A stretch of DNA of 64,000 nucleotides from Flavobacteriales bacterium (lineage in GTDB: Bacteria; Bacteroidota; Bacteroidia; CAIKAF01). Positions within the stretch are counted from its first letter, which is position 1. Every line of letters starts with the position of its first letter. Both the position numbers and the translations under genes were made by a program. Location: positions 536,016 to 600,015 of the forward strand of contig JAGYKD010000001.1 of the NCBI GenBank assembly GCA_018401695.1. The letters run 5' to 3'. A model generated the notes under the pieces. It was not told where the DNA came from. It ran no database searches and worked only from the letters and a program-made list of their open reading frames with translations. This document shows, piece after piece, positions 40,280-55,303 of the stretch.

Positions 40280-40333
40280 CAGACCCTGCGGTCAGGACAA
40301 AAAAGCTTGAAAACACAACGCGTCAACGGTCTC
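40280..40333 (+). repeat. Partial copy (right half) of the ~143-bp inverted-repeat element
   Basis: agaccctgcggtcaggacaaaaaagcttgaaaacacaacgcgtcaacggtctc. Confidence 0.65.
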
Positions 40334-45330: not shown

Positions 45331-45843
45331 ATGAGACATCTAATTTTCCTTGCTTTTTTGGCCTTTTCCGTATCCGCTTCTGCCCAAGAGCCCGAACTTT
45401 CTGATTGCGCCTGTTGCAGTGCGGTACACCGCATTTTTGAACCCTTGGAAGGGGAATGGACCCTCCGTGCCCTCGAAGGCCCGGATGTCAGCGGCACGGC
45501 CACTTGGTCGCAAAGCCTCAACGGTTGTGCCTGGTCGCTCAAACTTGCCATCCCCGGCGCCCACAGCCTGTGGAACCTAAGTTTCCAAAAAAACCAATTA
45601 CGCTGGATGGCTTTGGTCTCTACCGCCCTAGGCGATACCGAACTTTTGGAAGGCGCCAAACTCGACAACCGAAGCATTGTATTTATAGGAGCTTACCTAC
45701 CCGACGGCAAAGGAGGCCTCTACGCCAATCGCTGGCGCATGCTGCTTAAAGAAAACCAATGGGAGCTGCACCAAGAAACGGCGCGTGCCGATGGCAGCCT
45801 TTGGATGCTGCAGCGCAGTTGGCTTATGGAAAAACCCGATTAA
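45331..45843 (+). CDS. Secreted hypothetical protein
   Basis: Signal peptide MRHLIFLAFLAFSVSASAQ; CACCSAVHRIFEPLEGEWTLRAL. Confidence 0.65.
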   Translation: MRHLIFLAFLAFSVSASAQEPELSDCACCSAVHRIFEPLEGEWTLRALEGPDVSGTATWSQSLNGCAWSLKLAIPGAHSLWNLSFQKNQLRWMALVSTALGDTELLEGAKLDNRSIVFIGAYLPDGKGGLYANRWRMLLKENQWELHQETARADGSLWMLQRSWLMEKPD

Positions 45844-45845
45844 CA

Positions 45846-46110
45846 ATACAAAGGTTACGCTCCTGCGGAGCTGTGTTTGCTCGGTACAAAGGCTGCGCTC
45901 CTGCGGAGCTGTGCTCAATGGAGCTATTTCCAAAGGGACACGTCGTTCGGTGACCATGTGCAACAGCTCCGTAGGAGCGAAACCTTTGCAGCTCCGTAGG
46001 AGCGACACCCCTGCCAGCTCCGTAGGAGCGAAACCCCTGCCAGCTCCGTAGGAGCGAAACCTTTGCAGCTCCGTAGGAGCGACACCCCTGCCAGCTCCGT
46101 AGGAGCGAAA
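45846..46110. repeat. REP-type palindrome array 1 with header (~6 GCTCCGTAGGAGC units)
   Basis: Header ...cggtacaaaggctgcgctcctgcggagctgtgctcaatggagctatttccaaagggacacgtcgttcggtgaccatgtgcaacagctcc, then ~25-bp units cagctccgtaggagcgaaacc(ttt/ccctgc). Confidence 0.92.
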
Positions 46111-46111
46111 C

Positions 46112-47137
46112 CTAGTCCTGCTTAAAATAGGGATAGGGCAAATCGTCCGTTGTTTCATAACGGAATTCGCTTTTTTCGGTGCCATGGAGCCAATCTACCC
46201 AGCCCCATTTTCCATTTTTTTTCATGGCCAATTTTGAAACACCATCGGCACTAAAGCGCTTGTAATCTTCGTAGGCGCAGGGCAGCGTTTGGTGGGTGTC
46301 GGCTCCGTAACTCCAATAAGACAAATAAATACCCACATTCCCGCTATTATATACTGCCGTATACATGCCATTGAACGGAAAGAAACGTAGGCTGTCGTAA
46401 TCCATAGGAATTAAAGTTTGTATTTCTGATCCTCCATATTGAAACATCCCCCACTTTCCGGTGACTTTATGCCTTGCTTTAAACACACCGTCTCCGTTGC
46501 CTCCGTCAAAAAACACCAAATCTGCCTCCAAGGCCGATTTAATTTCCGGGAGTATCGATTGCATCCATGAGTCAAAATACACCAACGGAACCTCCTCTGC
46601 TTGCGCATATACAGGTTCTATGAGCCAAGTTTGAGTAAACCAATCCAGCAAGCCCCAGGCATTTCCCTGTTTTGCCTTTACATAGTCTTCGCCATCTTCC
46701 TGCATATGTTGCAACGCATCAAACCGGCAGTCTATGCGTTCCGCGGCATCGTGCACCTCCGAGGGCAACAAAAACAAACCATATTTGCCGTCTTTTTTTA
46801 CCAGTACAAAACGCTCCATACCGCAGAAAAAGCCTAAAGAATCATATTCGGCCGGAGCCAAGGTATCCACGCGCTCCAGCCGACCTTCGTAGTGATGAAT
46901 AACAAATAAGCCCCAGCGCTTACTGCCTTTAGGCCTCACCAAGGCTTGGCCTTCACAAGCTTCCGGCCCCCATTGCACTTCTTTGGCCTTAAGTTGACGT
47001 AAAAAGTCGCGCCCTTCAGGCCCTTGAGCACTCAAGCTATCCCAAACCATCAAACCCAAAAGAAAGGTCAACACAAAAAACCAGGGGCGATTAAAACCCT
47101 CACAATCGCTCCACACACAGGCACTCTTGCTTCTCAT
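46112..47137 (-). CDS. WG-repeat-like secreted protein
   Basis: Repeated G-K-W/Y-G motifs (KKDGKYGLFLLP, VTGKWGMFQYGG, KKNGKWGWVDW). Confidence 0.6.
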   Translation of the reverse strand: MRSKSACVWSDCEGFNRPWFFVLTFLLGLMVWDSLSAQGPEGRDFLRQLKAKEVQWGPEACEGQALVRPKGSKRWGLFVIHHYEGRLERVDTLAPAEYDSLGFFCGMERFVLVKKDGKYGLFLLPSEVHDAAERIDCRFDALQHMQEDGEDYVKAKQGNAWGLLDWFTQTWLIEPVYAQAEEVPLVYFDSWMQSILPEIKSALEADLVFFDGGNGDGVFKARHKVTGKWGMFQYGGSEIQTLIPMDYDSLRFFPFNGMYTAVYNSGNVGIYLSYWSYGADTHQTLPCAYEDYKRFSADGVSKLAMKKNGKWGWVDWLHGTEKSEFRYETTDDLPYPYFKQD

Positions 47138-47301
47138 ACTTACTGCATTTTTTTATCCCCAAGCCAACCCCATTAGAATAAACTATTTATTCCCGATTAT
47201 ATTTTACCGACACATACTACCCTTCCCCTGCTTTCGTTTTATGGGTGACAAAAGTCATAGACACCCAAAAAAAAGAAGCTAACTTGCCTAAAATTCAAAT
47301 C

Positions 47302-47727
47302 ATGAAGAAGCTAGTTTTCCCCATCCTTGCTCTTGTGGCCCTCAGCGCCTGCTCCGACGACAACAATAAAGCGGAATTGGAAAGTTTTGCTCAGGACGGA
47401 GAATGGGTCATAAGCAAGCTCATCGATTCCGGAACCGACGAATCCTCCTATTTTGTGGATTACCGCTTCACCTTCGAATCCGGCGGCACGCTTAAAGCCA
47501 GCAGCTCAAGCGACACCATAACAGGCACTTGGTCGGTAACCAACGACGACAGCAGCGACGACAGCAACAGCAGCAACGATCTGGACTTCCTAATTTCCTT
47601 TAACCAGCCTTTCCCTTGGGACGAATTAAACGACGACTGGGACGTACAAAGCTTTAGCAACACCCAAATAGCACTGGTAGATGAAAGCAGCGACGGCGAT
47701 AACGACGAGCTGACCTTTAGCAGATAA
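47302..47727 (+). CDS. Small lipoprotein, lipocalin-like
   Basis: MKKLVFPILALVALSACSDDNNKAELESFAQDGEWVISKLIDSG. Confidence 0.72.
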   Translation: MKKLVFPILALVALSACSDDNNKAELESFAQDGEWVISKLIDSGTDESSYFVDYRFTFESGGTLKASSSSDTITGTWSVTNDDSSDDSNSSNDLDFLISFNQPFPWDELNDDWDVQSFSNTQIALVDESSDGDNDELTFSR

Positions 47728-47788
47728 GCTTTAGCTTAAAGAGGCTGTTTTTGGGCTTGGGCCCCGGTTCCAAAGCACAATCCTTTAC

Positions 47789-48356
47789 TCGGTACAAAGG
47801 CTGCGCTCCTGCGGAGCTGTGCTCAATGGAGCTATTTCCAAAGGGACACGTCGTTCGGTGACCATGTGCAACAGCTCCGCAGGAGCGACACCTTTGCAGC
47901 TCCGTAGGTGCGACATCCCTGCCAGCTCCGTAGGAGCGAAACCTTTGCAGCTCCATAGGAGCGAAACCCCTGCCAGCTCCGTAGGAGCGAAACCTTTGCA
48001 GCTCCGTAGGAGCGAAACCCCTGCCAGCTCCGTAGGAGCGCGAAACCTTTGCAGCTCCGTAGGAGCGAAACCCCTGCCAGCTCCGTAGGAGCGACACCTT
48101 TGCAGCTCCGTAGGAGCGAAACCCCTGCCAGCTCCGTAGGAGCGAAACCTTTGCAGCTCCATAGGAGCGAAACCCCTGCCAGCTCCGTAGGAGCGAAACC
48201 TTTGCAGCTCCATAGGAGCGAAACCCCTGCCAGCTCCGTAGGAGCGAAACCTTTGCAGCTCCATAGGAGCGAAACCCCTGCCAGCTCCGTAGGAGCGAAA
48301 CCTTTGCAGCTCCATAGGAGCGAAACCCCTGCCAGCTCCGTAGGAGCGAAACCTTA
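47789..48356. repeat. REP-type palindrome array 2 with the same header (~19 units)
   Basis: Same ~85-bp header at 47789-47876, then alternating ~25-bp units (acctttg / acccctgc spacers); runs to within 10 bp of the Y1 transposase stop. Confidence 0.93.
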
Positions 48357-48364
48357 GTTATCTC

Positions 48365-48826
48365 TCAGTCGAACCAGTCAAATAAATATTGTTCGTCATA
48401 ATCAACATGGAAAATGTTTAAAAAATGAATGTACTCTTTCTTAAAGGTTCTTTTTCGATGATTTTCCGGTTGATTCAAAATGTACTTAACCACCCTATCC
48501 AATTCGCTTTTGGCATAGCTGAATGCCCCAAAACCTTCCTGCCATTGGAATTTGGAATTGGTGTATTGATGGTCGTTTATCCATTTGGAAGAATTCGATT
48601 TGATATCTCTTACTAAATCGGATAGGGATTGTGCAGGGTGAAGGCCTACCAAAATATGGCAGTGGTCCGGCATGCAATAAATTGCAAGTAGCTTATGCTT
48701 GTTGTTCTGAATGATTCCGGTCATGTATTTTTCAAGCGGCTCCCGAAAATCTTCATGTATCATCGACCTCCGGTATTTTACCGCACATACAATTTGAACC
48801 AACAATTGCGTATAAGTATTCCCCAT
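48365..48826 (-). CDS. IS200/Y1-type (RAYT-like) transposase
   Basis: MGNTYTQLLVQIVCAVKYRRSMI..., MPDHCHILVGLHPAQSLSDLVRDIKSNSSKWI (HUH), FSYAKSELDRVVKYILNQPENHRKRTFKKEYIHFL (catalytic Tyr region); start reassigned to 48826. Confidence 0.92.
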   Translation of the reverse strand: MGNTYTQLLVQIVCAVKYRRSMIHEDFREPLEKYMTGIIQNNKHKLLAIYCMPDHCHILVGLHPAQSLSDLVRDIKSNSSKWINDHQYTNSKFQWQEGFGAFSYAKSELDRVVKYILNQPENHRKRTFKKEYIHFLNIFHVDYDEQYLFDWFD

Positions 48827-48875
48827 CGTTCTTTGTTTCGTTGTTAATCTAATGAAATTGCGCTTCCAAGAAACA

Positions 48876-49021
48876 AGACCCTCGACGCGTTGTGTTTTCA
48901 AGACAAAGTCCCTGACCGGAGCGCCAGGTTTTTAATCCTGACTCAAAGATGCTGACCTCAGCGTCAGTAAAGAGGGACAGGAACAAAATCACCGCTAGAA
49001 TAGCAAGGCGTCAACGGTCTC
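48876..49021. repeat. ~146-bp inverted-repeat (REPIN-like) element upstream of the Y1 transposase
   Basis: gaccctcgacgcgttgtgttttcaagac ... ggcgtcaacggtctcc; homologous (reversed) to 51940-52082. Confidence 0.8.
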
Positions 49022-49065
49022 CAAACGGCATTTTATTGCGTCTGCTTTCACCTGCACCGAGCAGC

Positions 49066-50184
49066 CTATTGCTTCTCAAACTCCAACACGCTCAGCAAAG
49101 GAGAAAAAGTAGCGGTTCCGGTAAATTGCGCAGGGCCGCAACGCATTTGATTGTTGTTCAAATAATACACCCCCTGAGCAGGAATGGAAACACCACTGTT
49201 GTGACTGCATGAGCTTCCTTCCAATTCAATACTGTTTCCCGCAGAAAGCCAAAGATTATAATCTTCAAAATACACTTGGTCTCTATAACGCAGGTGCGTA
49301 CCATTGAGCTTTATCCCGGAGCCGTTGCAACAGCTGCCCATTTGCAAATCCCAACGGGTATAGGTTCCTGTTGTGTCGCCGGTGCATGGATTGGGTTGAG
49401 CAGGAGAGGCCTGAATGGTTTGAGTACTATGACTTTGTACTTGTTGTATCTGACTATTGCCCATTATTTTGGCAAGCTTCCACTGTCGGTTGCCAGGTAC
49501 CGTTTGGATTCCATCGCTTGCCGAAAAGGTATGCACTTGCACAAAGCTCAGACTGCTTTGAGGATTGGCAGTCGCATCAAATTCCAACACATTTACCCAA
49601 CGACTAACGCGCACCACAGCTCCGGGAATTGCCGAAGTGCCACATTGCCTCACATCCGGGGTGCAGTCATTATAATTTTCATTAAAAATAGTGCCGCAAT
49701 TGCCACAACTGCCGGTAGGTTGCTGCACGACTGGAATGGAATAACAAGGGGCACTATGTCCCACTTGCAAACTGTCTCCGGCCTTAAGCCACAAAGGCGC
49801 TTTGAGTCTAACCAAACTGGTGGACTGGTAATTTTCCAAAGCTGCTTCTTGCCCGTTAATGTAAATAGCTGCGTATCTGGAACTGCAATCCGACCAAGAA
49901 TAGCTGCGCATCTCCCGATTGTTGCAGGAGCTGTTGGCACAACCATTGCAGGCATCGGGCGTACTGGCATTGCCTCTGGGATAACTCACCGAAACCGAAG
50001 ATCGATAGGGCTTGGTTTCATCGATCACAGCAATGACCTTCCAGACCTTTCCCGAAGGTACGGTAACTGAGCCGCTGTCGCTGTTAAACAAGAGCACCCG
50101 GCTAAACTCCAAAGACTGGGTCTGTCCGTACCCTATTTTCGCAGCCGAGCAAAAGAGCATCAAAGAAATCAGGCTTACTTTCAT
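49066..50184 (-). CDS. Secreted hypothetical protein
   Basis: MKVSLISLMLFCSAAKIGYGQ signal peptide; duplicated ~180-aa Cys-containing halves. Confidence 0.65.
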   Translation of the reverse strand: MKVSLISLMLFCSAAKIGYGQTQSLEFSRVLLFNSDSGSVTVPSGKVWKVIAVIDETKPYRSSVSVSYPRGNASTPDACNGCANSSCNNREMRSYSWSDCSSRYAAIYINGQEAALENYQSTSLVRLKAPLWLKAGDSLQVGHSAPCYSIPVVQQPTGSCGNCGTIFNENYNDCTPDVRQCGTSAIPGAVVRVSRWVNVLEFDATANPQSSLSFVQVHTFSASDGIQTVPGNRQWKLAKIMGNSQIQQVQSHSTQTIQASPAQPNPCTGDTTGTYTRWDLQMGSCCNGSGIKLNGTHLRYRDQVYFEDYNLWLSAGNSIELEGSSCSHNSGVSIPAQGVYYLNNNQMRCGPAQFTGTATFSPLLSVLEFEKQ

Positions 50185-50376
50185 ATAGTAAAAATACAAA
50201 AAGAGCTTTGACTTAAAATCCTCCGGCAAAAGCATAGAAATTGCCGCCCCCCTAGCTCCGCAGGAGCGCAACCCGTGCCAAATCCTTAGGAGCGCAACCG
50301 TTGTTCGCCCTTCAAGTTTCAAAAATTAAACCTTTGAACCATGGCGAAGTCTAAAGATTAAACAGTAACTTTCAAC

Positions 50377-51936
50377 ATGAAAAAGCTTTTCGCTCTGTGT
50401 TTTGTTGCGCTGCTTGGCCAGTCCATAAAGGCACATTCCCCCACCTGGACCGACGGCATTGCCTGCATCATTTACTCGCATTGCTCAAGCTGTCACAACA
50501 GCAACGGAATAGCTCCCTTTAGTCTAACTACCTACGACGAGGTATACGCCAACCGCTTTTCCATTGCCGCTTCCGTTCAAGCCAAAAGCATGCCTCCTTT
50601 CCCTCCCGACATGTCTAAGCAGCGCCTGGCACATGCCAATGTGTTGAGCCAACATGAAATCGATGAAATTGTGGATTGGGTCAACAATTTTGCGCCCTTG
50701 GGCAATGTCGCCGATATGCCTACGCCTCCGGTGTATCCCAACGGCTATGAACTCCAAAATGCAGATGTGGTATTGCGCATGCCCAACTATACCGTGAATA
50801 CCGTAAACGACTTATACCGAGTTTTTGTGCTTCCGGTGGGCAACACCGGCACCCAATACATTTCAGAAATTGAGGTGGTTCCTGGCAACCGAGATATTGT
50901 GCACCATGCCTTGGTGTATCAAGACAATAGTCAAGTACCGGTAAATCTGGACGCCAACGATCCGGGACCGGGCTATACGGCTTTTGGGGGCACCAATTCA
51001 CAAAACTCCACCTTGCTTTGGGGCTATACTCCCGGTCAAAAGGTGTTTAAATATGCGCCGGGCTTTGGGGTTAAGCTGGAGCCCAACACCAACATTCTTT
51101 TGCAGGTTCATTATCCCGGAGGTATAAGCAATCAGGTGGATTCCACCTCCGTGCGCATAAAGTATGCATCTGCTACGCCCAGGGAGTTGGCCGTTTTGCC
51201 CGTGATAAACCATGTAACTACCCTCACCAACGGTCCTTTGTTTATTCCTGCGAACACGGTAAAGACCATGTATGCAGAATTTCAGGTTCCCTCCGACGTT
51301 ACGGTGACCAGCGTTATGCCGCACATGCATTTGATTGGAACATCCATTAAAGCCTATGCGCTTACGCCTACTCAAGACACCATTCATCTCATAGATATTC
51401 CCCAATGGGATTTCCATTGGCAAGGCTTTTATCAATTCCCCAAGCCTTTGCGCATTCCGGCCAATAGTGTGGTGCATGCCGAAGCCGTTTACGACAATAC
51501 TAGCAACAACCCCTATAATCCAAACAATCCGCCCCAAAATGTAAGTGCCGGCGAAGGCACCGAAGACGAAATGATGCTCATCTATTTTAACGTATCGAAT
51601 TATTTTCCCGGAGACACCAATATTATAGTAGATACGGTAAGTCACTTGCCCCACCACCCTTCTTGCTACGCCCTTACCGGCTTGAGCGAAACGGAAAAAA
51701 CCGGTGCTATGCTTCGGTTTTACCCTAACCCAAGTTCGTATGAAGTCCGTTTGGCCGGATTGAACCAAGACGCTACCGTACGTTTGTTTGATCAGCGAGG
51801 AAAAACCGCCGGAATATGGTCGGTTAGCTCAGAGGCCAACCTATTGAAAGTGCAGAACTTGTCCTCCGGACTGTATTATGCCCAAATTCGACTGAAGGAC
51901 GGAACGGTGTATTACCAAAAGCTGGTGCTTCAGTAA
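50377..51936 (+). CDS. Secreted c-type-cytochrome-like / copper monooxygenase-like protein with T9SS C-terminal sorting domain
   Basis: Heme motif CSSCH; PHMHLIGTSIKAYA; C-terminal RFYPNPSSYEVRLAGLN...NLSSGLYYAQIRLKDGTVYYQKLVLQ. Confidence 0.82.
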   Translation: MKKLFALCFVALLGQSIKAHSPTWTDGIACIIYSHCSSCHNSNGIAPFSLTTYDEVYANRFSIAASVQAKSMPPFPPDMSKQRLAHANVLSQHEIDEIVDWVNNFAPLGNVADMPTPPVYPNGYELQNADVVLRMPNYTVNTVNDLYRVFVLPVGNTGTQYISEIEVVPGNRDIVHHALVYQDNSQVPVNLDANDPGPGYTAFGGTNSQNSTLLWGYTPGQKVFKYAPGFGVKLEPNTNILLQVHYPGGISNQVDSTSVRIKYASATPRELAVLPVINHVTTLTNGPLFIPANTVKTMYAEFQVPSDVTVTSVMPHMHLIGTSIKAYALTPTQDTIHLIDIPQWDFHWQGFYQFPKPLRIPANSVVHAEAVYDNTSNNPYNPNNPPQNVSAGEGTEDEMMLIYFNVSNYFPGDTNIIVDTVSHLPHHPSCYALTGLSETEKTGAMLRFYPNPSSYEVRLAGLNQDATVRLFDQRGKTAGIWSVSSEANLLKVQNLSSGLYYAQIRLKDGTVYYQKLVLQ

Positions 51937-51939
51937 GTG

Positions 51940-52082
51940 GAGACTGTTGATGCGATGCTATTCTGGCGGCAATCCTGTCCTGACAGGAACGTCAGGGTCT
52001 GCGTTGCAGGCAAATCTCAAGTATTTTATCCTGACCGCAGCGTCAGGACTAGGTCTTGAAAACGCAACGCATCAACCGTCTC
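51940..52082. repeat. ~143-bp inverted-repeat (REPIN-like) element
   Basis: gagactgttgatgcgatg ... cgcaacgcatcaaccgtctc termini; two internal cctgac-N6-gtcagg hairpins. Confidence 0.85.
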
Positions 52083-52163
52083 AAGTTGGTTTGTTTTGGA
52101 AGGGGCTTGTTTCAACCGCGGGCGAGTGGCCATAATATTAAGGCTTCCAAAAAGAACTTTGGT

Positions 52164-52328
52164 TCGGAGCTTAAGCGCCCCGGCGGAGTTGGAAAGCCCG
52201 GAGGTTTTGGCCTTAGGGCAGCAAGCGCTGAGGAGGCCCCCGATATTTGGAGGGGGACCCCGGAAGCCTTGCTGCCCTTAGGCTGAAACCGAGGACTTGG
52301 AAACGGAGACGGAAAAGGCGCCCAAAAA
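52164..52328 (+). repeat. GC-rich nested-hairpin element E6
   Basis: cggagcttaagcgccccggcgg...ccttagggcagcaag...gaggaggcccccgatatttggagggggaccccg...cttgctgcccttagg...cggagacggaaaaggcgcccaaaaa. Confidence 0.85.
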
Positions 52329-52381
52329 AACACTCCTTGGAATGGCAAACCAGAAACCTCCTTGTTTAGGAGAATTTTGGG

Positions 52382-55303
52382 TCAGTCGTAGGGAATGAAA
52401 AACTCTACGCGGGTGCCGCGGGGCCTGCCGTCTTGGTCGTAGAGGTCGGTGATTTTAAAATTGGCAGGACGGTCTCTCAATTCATTAACCAATTGCAGGC
52501 GGTCCTTGGTAATTTGAATGCCTTTGCTGATGTAATCGCTTTGCTGGCTGCCTTCTTTTAGGGCTTCGCGTTTGACTCGACCGATGCCGTTGTCTTCGAT
52601 GAGACAATAAAGCATTCGGTTGGGCTTGGTTTCAAAAGAGATGAGCAATTTGGCGCCTTCTTTTTTAGGCAAGAGGCCATGTTTTATGGCGTTTTCAACG
52701 AAGGGTTGAATGATCATGGGCGGGATTCGGATGCTGGCTTGGTCCAACTCTTCGGGGACCAGAATGTGGTACTGAAAACGGTTGCTAAAGCGCAGGGTTT
52801 CAAGGCCGAGATAAAGCTCAAGTAGGGCAATCTTGTCCATTAGGCTTACGTCTTTTTGGTCCGATTGGTCCAAAATCATGCGCAATAAGCGGGCAAATTT
52901 GCTCAGGTATTGGTTGGCTTCCTTTTTGCGGTCGGTGTTGATTAGGTTTTGAATGGACCCCAGGCTATTGAACAGAAAATGTGGATTCATTTGCGCTTTA
53001 AGGGCCGTGAGTTTAAGCTCATTGAGCACTTTGTTGTATTCCGTTTTTTCCTTTTCTCTTTTTTTAATGTATTTGACTCTAAGCAAAATAAATATGGCCA
53101 CCAGACCAAGGGCCAACAGAACCATAAAGATGCGAAAGAGCAGGGTTTGCCAATATGCCGGTTTAATGGAAATACGGATATCGATGGGCTGCAGGGATTT
53201 TTGTCCATAATGATCTAATGCATAGGCAACGAAGTGGTAATTCCCTGGGGGTAAGCCGGCAAAGTTTATGATGTTACTTTTGGTTTGATACCAATTGCTG
53301 TCGAGTCCGTCCAATCGGTACGTATAGCTAATTCCCTTGGGGTTGCTGTACGAAATTCCATGCAACTCCAGCTCTAGGTTGTTGCTGTTGTGGTCCAGCT
53401 GCTCCAAGGTTTTTATTTGGGCCTGTTGGTCGTTGATTTTTATCCCGGCGAGATGAATGGGAGGTGGCGGGGATTGTTTTCGCATGCGTGAGCGGACAAA
53501 TAAATTAAGTCCTTCGTTGGAGGCTGCCCAGACCGAGTCGCCCTGAACCAGCACCTGATTGATTTCTTCGGCAAGCAAGCCTTCGGCCTCTCCAAAATGG
53601 CGCATTTGGTTGGATTCCGGATGAATTTTATCCAGTCCTTTTCTTCCGGAAACCCATAAGTTGCCTTGTTCATCCAAAAACACATGGTTTACCATATTTG
53701 AAGCCAATCCTACGCCGCTGTGGTAATGATAAATGGCTTCTTTTCCTTTTAATCCAAACAAGCCTGCGCCTAAAGTGCTCACCCACATTAAGCCACGCTT
53801 AGGATCGGAACAAATACTTGAAACCCGTTGGTTTTTAAAGGTGGATCCATCGACCCAAAAGCGATTGACTCCGCTTCGAAACAAACTCAGGCCCCATTCG
53901 GAAGCGTAGAGCAGGCCATCTTGGCTAAAATCGAACTCCATGGAACCGATTCGGCCAATAAGCTGGCGGTTCAAGACTTTCCCTTGGGCATTAAGCTGAA
54001 TCAAACTTTTACCGGCGCCGACCCAAACTTCTTGATCCAAACCCTCCACAAGAGAGCGACCTGGCTGGTCCAAAACACGAGTTAATCGTCCGGCCTTCCA
54101 GCGAAAAACACCGCGTTCGGTGGCTATCCAAATGCTTTCGTCGCTGTGTTGAATCAACTGGTTCACCCTTGAAGTAACGTACCCGGCTTTGCCCTCCAGC
54201 AGGGTTTGCATGGCGCCGTTTTTCCATGTAAACACCGCTCCATCGTCGGAACCCACTGCAATTCCCTCTTTTTTTAAATGGAGCAAGCTGGTGATATGAT
54301 TGGCTGCAGGTCTATTGCTGCGTCCAAAGCGCAGGGTACGGGCTTGGGGGACAAAATAAAGGCCGGAACCAGGGGTGGCGGCCCAAATGTTTCCTTCAAA
54401 ATCAAGCGCTAAAGATTGGACCCTTAATTCTTTTAAAAAATGGCTTTGAACAAACCAACCCACTTGGGAATCATAGGTCAATTGCACAACGCCCATGCTG
54501 GTACCCATCCACAAGTCGCCCTTGGAGTCGACCAAAAGGGCTTGGACAACCAAGTCGGGGACTTGGGTTTTCCAAAGGGGCAAAGGCTCTAATCCCGGAT
54601 CAATGCCGTATAGGCTGCCCCCATAAGCCATTAGCCATTGTTTGGTGGGGCCATGCCAAACCAAAGGTTGGGGCATGGCTTTTCCGGATTCGGAAAAAAC
54701 TCCGGGTTCTTTTTTCCACCGACCCAAAGAAAAGCTATACCATGAACCGCCTAGATTTCCTGAGGCAAGAAGTTGCCCCTTATGGTTTTCGGCAAAGTTC
54801 ATTACTACCTGCCCGGGGGTTTGGTAGCTACCTAAAATTGAATCGTTTCGGGTTTGAAAAACCCATTGGTCGTAACTGCTGAACCAAACCCTGTTGCTTT
54901 GGTCGTAATAGACCGAGGCAATGTTGTGGCGTGCAAGTCGTGGGATTTTATGGTAAGTTTCGGCCTGGCCTTGTACGATTCGTCCCGGAATTCCCTTTCC
55001 GGTGCTAAACCACAAGTTTCCCATAGGCGTAGGAGCCAGGACTTGTACTTCGTTGTCGGGTAAGCCTTCGCCGGTGGTAAAGGTATGGAAGGTTTGGCCG
55101 TCGAACCGAGCAATTCCGGCATTGGTGCTTATCCAAATATATCCTTGAGCATCCGTGCAGACCTGGTGTATTTCGGAGGAGGGGAGGCCATCGGAAGAGG
55201 AGAGCCGTCTATGCACCACTTCTTGCCCATATCCCTTGGAGACAGGAAACAAGCCAAAAAGTGGCAGCAAGAGCAAAAGAGAGAGCCTATGGGACAAAGG
55301 CAT
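52382..55303 (-). CDS. Two-component regulator propeller / Y_Y_Y sensor histidine kinase (LytS-type His kinase)
   Basis: Propeller repeats, TM FRIFMVLLALGLVAIFILLRVKYI, KAQMNPHFLFNSLGSIQNLI, PPMIIQPFVENAIKHGL. Confidence 0.93.
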   Translation of the reverse strand: MPLSHRLSLLLLLPLFGLFPVSKGYGQEVVHRRLSSSDGLPSSEIHQVCTDAQGYIWISTNAGIARFDGQTFHTFTTGEGLPDNEVQVLAPTPMGNLWFSTGKGIPGRIVQGQAETYHKIPRLARHNIASVYYDQSNRVWFSSYDQWVFQTRNDSILGSYQTPGQVVMNFAENHKGQLLASGNLGGSWYSFSLGRWKKEPGVFSESGKAMPQPLVWHGPTKQWLMAYGGSLYGIDPGLEPLPLWKTQVPDLVVQALLVDSKGDLWMGTSMGVVQLTYDSQVGWFVQSHFLKELRVQSLALDFEGNIWAATPGSGLYFVPQARTLRFGRSNRPAANHITSLLHLKKEGIAVGSDDGAVFTWKNGAMQTLLEGKAGYVTSRVNQLIQHSDESIWIATERGVFRWKAGRLTRVLDQPGRSLVEGLDQEVWVGAGKSLIQLNAQGKVLNRQLIGRIGSMEFDFSQDGLLYASEWGLSLFRSGVNRFWVDGSTFKNQRVSSICSDPKRGLMWVSTLGAGLFGLKGKEAIYHYHSGVGLASNMVNHVFLDEQGNLWVSGRKGLDKIHPESNQMRHFGEAEGLLAEEINQVLVQGDSVWAASNEGLNLFVRSRMRKQSPPPPIHLAGIKINDQQAQIKTLEQLDHNSNNLELELHGISYSNPKGISYTYRLDGLDSNWYQTKSNIINFAGLPPGNYHFVAYALDHYGQKSLQPIDIRISIKPAYWQTLLFRIFMVLLALGLVAIFILLRVKYIKKREKEKTEYNKVLNELKLTALKAQMNPHFLFNSLGSIQNLINTDRKKEANQYLSKFARLLRMILDQSDQKDVSLMDKIALLELYLGLETLRFSNRFQYHILVPEELDQASIRIPPMIIQPFVENAIKHGLLPKKEGAKLLISFETKPNRMLYCLIEDNGIGRVKREALKEGSQQSDYISKGIQITKDRLQLVNELRDRPANFKITDLYDQDGRPRGTRVEFFIPYD

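Follow-up and report, generated by a model that had tools for sequence, protein, structure and literature searches.

What kind of enzyme is encoded by a Y1 transposase gene that sits between a tandem hairpin array and a 147-bp element with inverted ends, and which of the two repeat families belongs to it? Both repeats occur in the window, the whole 64,000-nucleotide stretch of DNA that we analyzed, and the interval under study (48356-49021) spans the Y1 gene and the element, here called E, while excluding the array (47872-48354). A first-pass annotation had read the gene as a RAYT that may mobilize one or both families. The features concerned are listed in Table 1.

Table 1. Coordinates of the Y1 gene and neighboring repeats in the window
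Feature	Position	Strand	Remarks
TnpA-Y1 (HUH/Tyr) transposase gene, 153 aa	48365..48826	-	ATG at 48826; PF01797
Hairpin array 2, ~19 units GGKTTTC-GCTCC-TAY-GGAGC	47872..48354	-	TRF, unit parse, genome-wide count
Hairpin array 1, 6 copies of the array 2 unit	45964..46113	-	Two genes from Y1; TRF, unit parse
92-bp module (inverted hairpin, spacer, first array unit)	47788..47879	-	Far end of array 2
92-bp module, second copy	45880..45971	-	Far end of array 1; 100% identical to 47788-47879
Array remnant (an intact hairpin and a degraded one)	50254..50304	-	
E element copy 1, 147 bp, MITE	48875..49021	-	Flanks GAAAC/CAAAC; 48 bp from Y1 ATG
E element copy 2, MITE	51940..52082	+	Flanks AAGTG/AAGTT; 3 nt past stop codon (TAA)
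Truncated E element, one end only	40285..40333	-	

Class of the Y1 protein

The protein matched the Y1_Tnp domain (PF01797; E = 5.9e-28) and carries the HUH motif DHCHILV. It scored 74.4 bits with the NCBIfam model for IS200/IS605 (NF033573), exceeding the cut-off of 55, and 46.7 bits with the RAYT model (NF047646), which did not reach the cut-off of 80. Its tyrosine motif is Y---Q, not Y--NP, with Q119 invariant among 43 sequences. When the AlphaFold model (pLDDT 92.9) was compared with known structures, the predicted fold ranked ISDra2 and IS608 TnpA first and the RAYT structure 4er8 29th, and a sequence search of solved structures matched IS200/IS605-type enzymes only. No GTAG or GTGG foot was present directly 5′ of the hairpins; TTTC or TGTC precedes the stem in the window, and the corresponding consensus in the hairpins of relatives ends in ..DTC. 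The first-pass identification as a RAYT was not supported, given the missed RAYT cut-off, the Y---Q motif and the lack of a GTAG foot. Nor did the locus form an IS-like unit, in the sense of near-identical multiple copies that each bear a left-end hairpin and a right-end hairpin. The window genome contains four divergent single-copy Y1 paralogues, and the best paralogue of the window Y1 shares 46% identity with it.

TnpA-Y1 subclass 1.2 has been set apart from RAYTs, is listed without REPs in Table 1 of its description, and is characterized by Y---Q--HH, DH[IV]H and WQ motifs and a length of ~148 aa (Quentin et al. 2018, PMC6006769). The window protein has DHCH, WQ and Y115-ILNQPENH, in which one H of the HH pair is replaced by N (relatives have HH), and because these motifs and its length fit, we place it in this subclass as its probable home (PMC6006769). 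The loci studied here further resemble the subclass in their size (~150 aa), their occurrence in Bacteroidota, a short core with a C-terminal tail, DH[VI]H, WQ and Y---Q--HH type motifs, low copy number and behavior that is not that of an IS.

The E element is an unrelated MITE

The first-pass annotation described the region accurately to within a few bases: the Y1 gene with its HUH motif adjoins the array (~11 bp from stop codon to array edge, against 9), the upstream element is present (147 bp and 48 bp from the ATG, against ~146 and ~50 bp), as are its homologue at 51940-52082 (3 nt after the TAA, against 4) and the half copy ending at 40333. Its reading of E as a REPIN-like element moved by Y1 fared otherwise. 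The flanks of both window copies match at 4/5 bases, and those of copy 1 resemble a 5-bp target duplication that has since decayed. In the window genome, E occurs in ~65 dispersed copies; exact 5-bp direct flanks were found in 20 of the 41 two-ended copies, against 0.64 expected from shuffling, with no excess of other flank lengths among the same 41. Its terminal repeat (≤1 mismatch) gave 129 genome matches versus 1 control match. E thus has no ORF, terminal inverted repeats, a target duplication of constant length and dispersed copies, as MITEs do, and is not an inverted pair of REPs related to those of a RAYT and free of target duplication, as a REPIN would be. It is well established that Y1/HUH transposases leave no target duplications; E was therefore moved by a DDE enzyme, and for the same reason E was rejected as a Y1 or REPIN substrate.

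The distribution of E agrees with this. It was present in the window genome and a sister species (G007) and was not found in 14 other related genomes, several of which carry the Y1 family. In the sister species, the slot upstream of Y1 is occupied by array hairpins and not by E, with a decayed E-like sequence visible by eye beyond the neighboring gene. We give almost no credence to the reading in which the window Y1 acts on both families as REPIN-like substrates. Each adjoins the gene, and E combines internal hairpins with a strong terminal stem, but E carries 5-bp target duplications, lies elsewhere at the sister locus, is absent from the 14 genomes and has no end sequence in common with the array, and an E copy would be expected by chance within ~1.2 kb of a given Y1 in ~5% of cases and of any of the four in 19%. 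E is an independent, ordinary DDE-type MITE, unrelated to Y1, that landed there by chance. The proposal that Y1 is tied to one or both families is accordingly supported for the array and rejected for E.

Two further observations concern the E family. A 1.3-kb IS5-family transposase gene lies between E-type terminal repeats (L210 2632-3933; G000:C1:161131-162432); it is single copy, has no clear target duplication, is absent from G007 and is a candidate autonomous parent of the family. The terminal arms of E co-vary between copies (TGTTGATGC, CCGTTGACGC and CCGTTGACGG on both ends; L035-L064, L088-L102), which would fit arms that pair into a stem or are corrected one by the other.

Array hairpins lie almost entirely around their own Y1 gene

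Array 2 comprises 18.8 copies of a 25/26-bp unit arranged as a 51-bp dimer (TRF score 880), and its hairpin, GCTCC-RTA-GGAGC, has a 5-bp stem and a 3-nt loop. Exact array hairpins numbered 23, versus 0 for the reversed pattern. Rfam gave no match over 45500-52500, and a search of the open-access literature for the hairpin sequence found no papers. Across the 2.99-Mb genome, GCTCCRTAGGAGC (family A; ≤1 mismatch) had 33 matches, of which 29 fall within 4.4 kb (C1:581874-586282) around Y1, so that the genome-wide, high-copy dispersal of palindromes typical of RAYTs was not seen. The other paralogues have hairpins of their own: all 15 matches of the family B hairpin CGACCCCTTCGGGGTCG lie ≤2.8 kb from paralogue B, 8/11 matches of the family D hairpin (RGGAGCCGACA type) lie ≤1.3 kb from paralogue D, and the fourth paralogue (L003) has the hairpin CCCACGATTAAATCGTGGG. 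Three Y1 paralogues of one genome (window, B and D) are therefore each set amid a different, almost wholly local hairpin family.

This arrangement was conserved at orthologous loci. In the sister species, whose Y1 is 82% identical and has the same neighbors, 10/10 exact hairpins flank the gene on both sides. In a more distant genome (G011; Y1 49% identical), arrays of the same hairpin abut the gene on both sides with a different spacer, and a few copies lie elsewhere. Short array relics were also present in G001 and G004, relatives that gave no Y1 match. What is conserved is the array locus; its spacers and copy number turn over. On these sequence comparisons, a link between Y1 and the array is supported, because its position is conserved, it is nearly confined to the locus and it recurs across Bacteroidota. 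One alternative is that an old IS200-like insertion decayed passively into the arrays, which only local duplication has maintained. The 92-bp module and the arrays of family A do resemble local duplications, and array length and spacing differ between species; against this, different genera share the hairpin sequence but not the spacers at the same gene, and inverted pairs recur across Bacteroidota, and we regard this explanation as improbable.

Separately, in paralogue D (L004 1501-1947; G000:C1:523638-524093; L081 in G007), Ala replaces the catalytic Tyr (DIAAIQAQ) in both species, and the hairpin array is kept despite this replacement. The enzyme is possibly inactive or repurposed. One sub-threshold Rfam hit in L004 was taken as chance.

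Survey of subclass 1.2 loci

We surveyed 80 subclass 1.2 loci, the best matches to a window-based query, which are mostly from Bacteroidota with single records of Ignavibacteria, Neomarinimicrobiota and Balneolaceae; other genes at the same loci served as controls. A perfect hairpin was found ≤100 nt 3′ of the stop codon in 60/78 Y1 genes (control genes, 68/337) and upstream in 51/77 (35/293), and an inverted shared k-mer of at least 11 occurred in 35/74 cases (11/282). Fisher tests gave p <1e-17 for each comparison, values that ignore shared ancestry and are descriptive; they overstate independence because the loci are best query matches and kin, with controls from the same loci. The consensus of the oriented hairpins was TTYTAYNAANAKDTC-stem, and YTAY occurred at -13/-12 before the stem in 108/229 of them versus 13/255 controls (p = 1e-28, shared ancestry ignored). 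In the window units, the YTAY position (-13) is degenerate (CTGC, CTGG or GTAC). A second sample of 22 loci agreed (3′ hairpin, 16/22; 5′ hairpin, 12/22; YTAY, 20/56). By eye, the hairpins showed no pattern of the base-pairing rule between guide and cleavage site in IS608.

Hairpin type follows the protein tree, with 13 changes against a mean of 26.7 and a minimum of 23 for shuffled labels. Paralogue B falls among Lacihabitans proteins, whose genes likewise lie close to GACCCC..GGGGTC hairpins. These data bear on the alternative that the hairpins are expression signals of Y1, either terminators or mRNA hairpins limiting the transposase, with arrays that arose by slippage and no involvement of the enzyme. 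Consistent with such signals, the stems are short and perfect, and the first hairpin often lies 0-40 nt past the stop codon with another just before the ATG. The fixed distance of YTAY, the inverted symmetry on both sides, the lack of a T-run, the 19-copy arrays and the family-specific sequences that track the protein tree argue against them, and we consider this explanation unlikely, though somewhat better placed than passive decay.

Gene-less elements with hairpins were also encountered. One genome (G210) has dispersed hairpin modules, some copies of which have 10-11-bp direct flanking repeats; because of these flanks, at least those modules were probably moved by another, DDE-type enzyme, and the modules were dropped as proof of Y1 mobility. 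A gene-less element of ~210 bp (L216-L223, genome of L109) contains four Y1-type hairpins and has the ends AYAACTGTTCGAAAC; as some copies have direct flanks of 10-11 bp, it may be a MITE carrying Y1-type hairpins.

Proposed action and relation to known systems

We judge it likely that the window Y1 is an IS200-like nuclease/transposase for single-strand DNA, belonging to TnpA-Y1 subclass 1.2, and, jointly, that the neighboring hairpins are its cognate DNA sites in a REPtron-like unit. Under this model, Y1 would bind the array hairpins as single strands, cut near the YTAY motif 12-13 nt before the stem, much as IS608 TnpA does beside its guide-selected site, and rejoin the cut ends, amplifying units mostly in cis. 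Such amplification would yield tandem arrays and local duplicates, among them the two identical 92-bp modules. We infer cleavage or movement of the hairpins by Y1 from this arrangement. Points against the model are the degenerate YTAY position in the window, the array relics in G001 and G004, the direct flanks of the G210 modules, the array kept by paralogue D without its catalytic Tyr, and the fact that replication slippage or recombination can also lengthen tandem arrays. More tentatively, Bacteroidota may have in subclass 1.2 a widespread REP-type system in which each enzyme has its own YTAY-tagged hairpin, acts mainly in cis and builds private arrays around its gene rather than dispersed copies; we hold this broader proposition at slightly below an even chance.

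Like RAYT/TnpA-REP and the REPtrons (class 2; E. coli, Stenotrophomonas), the loci described here have a single-copy Y1 gene flanked by short hairpins in inverted arrangement, with family-specific pairing of enzyme and hairpin. They differ in protein class, in lacking the GTAG foot, in a motif 12-13 nt from the stem, and in hairpins that are local rather than dispersed in hundreds of copies. IS200/IS605 elements (IS608, ISDra2) provide the closest solved structures and the NCBIfam family of the window Y1, and the left end of IS608 resembles a YTAC-like motif 5′ of a hairpin. However, a multi-copy IS unit is lacking here, and whereas IS200/IS605 have a left and a right end on the same strand, the present hairpins stand in inverted symmetry or in tandem. 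A further parallel comes from work on CGTC- and GTAG-tagged REPs (Di Nocera et al. 2013, PMC3733652), in which Y1 genes have REPs or, as TIRtrons, other inverted repeats on their flanks. Some array units have TGTC beside the stem, a reported variant of the CGTC repeats, but the stems there are 8-9 bp and here 5 bp, and no transposase flanked by CGTC units was found in that study (PMC3733652).

Subclass 1.2 was described without IS ends or REPs, and we found no papers in the open-access literature (PMC) tying it to REPs. Our data add to the description in PMC6006769 in that hairpins flank most members and form arrays at some; these hairpins are candidate sites. Collectively, a Y1 gene next to an almost private hairpin array, with most of the tested relatives in Bacteroidota beside hairpins particular to them, suggests an overlooked REP-like system. 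If the hairpins are its sites, such a system would be carried by 113/198 sampled genomes of the window's class. The many natural enzyme-hairpin pairs would then be available for studying the co-evolution of specificity, and three hairpin families of one genome, each staying almost entirely with its own gene, would allow a direct test of cis-restricted single-strand transposition.

Another repeat near Y1 loci

Near three other Y1 loci or loci of relatives (L002 2190-2330; L004 2215-2370; L003 1255-1430; L233 380-515) there is a ~170-bp intergenic repeat that is GC-rich, ends in CGGAWAAGGCGCCC-AAAA and gave no Rfam match over threshold. It also adjoins E copy 2 in the window (52170-52330).
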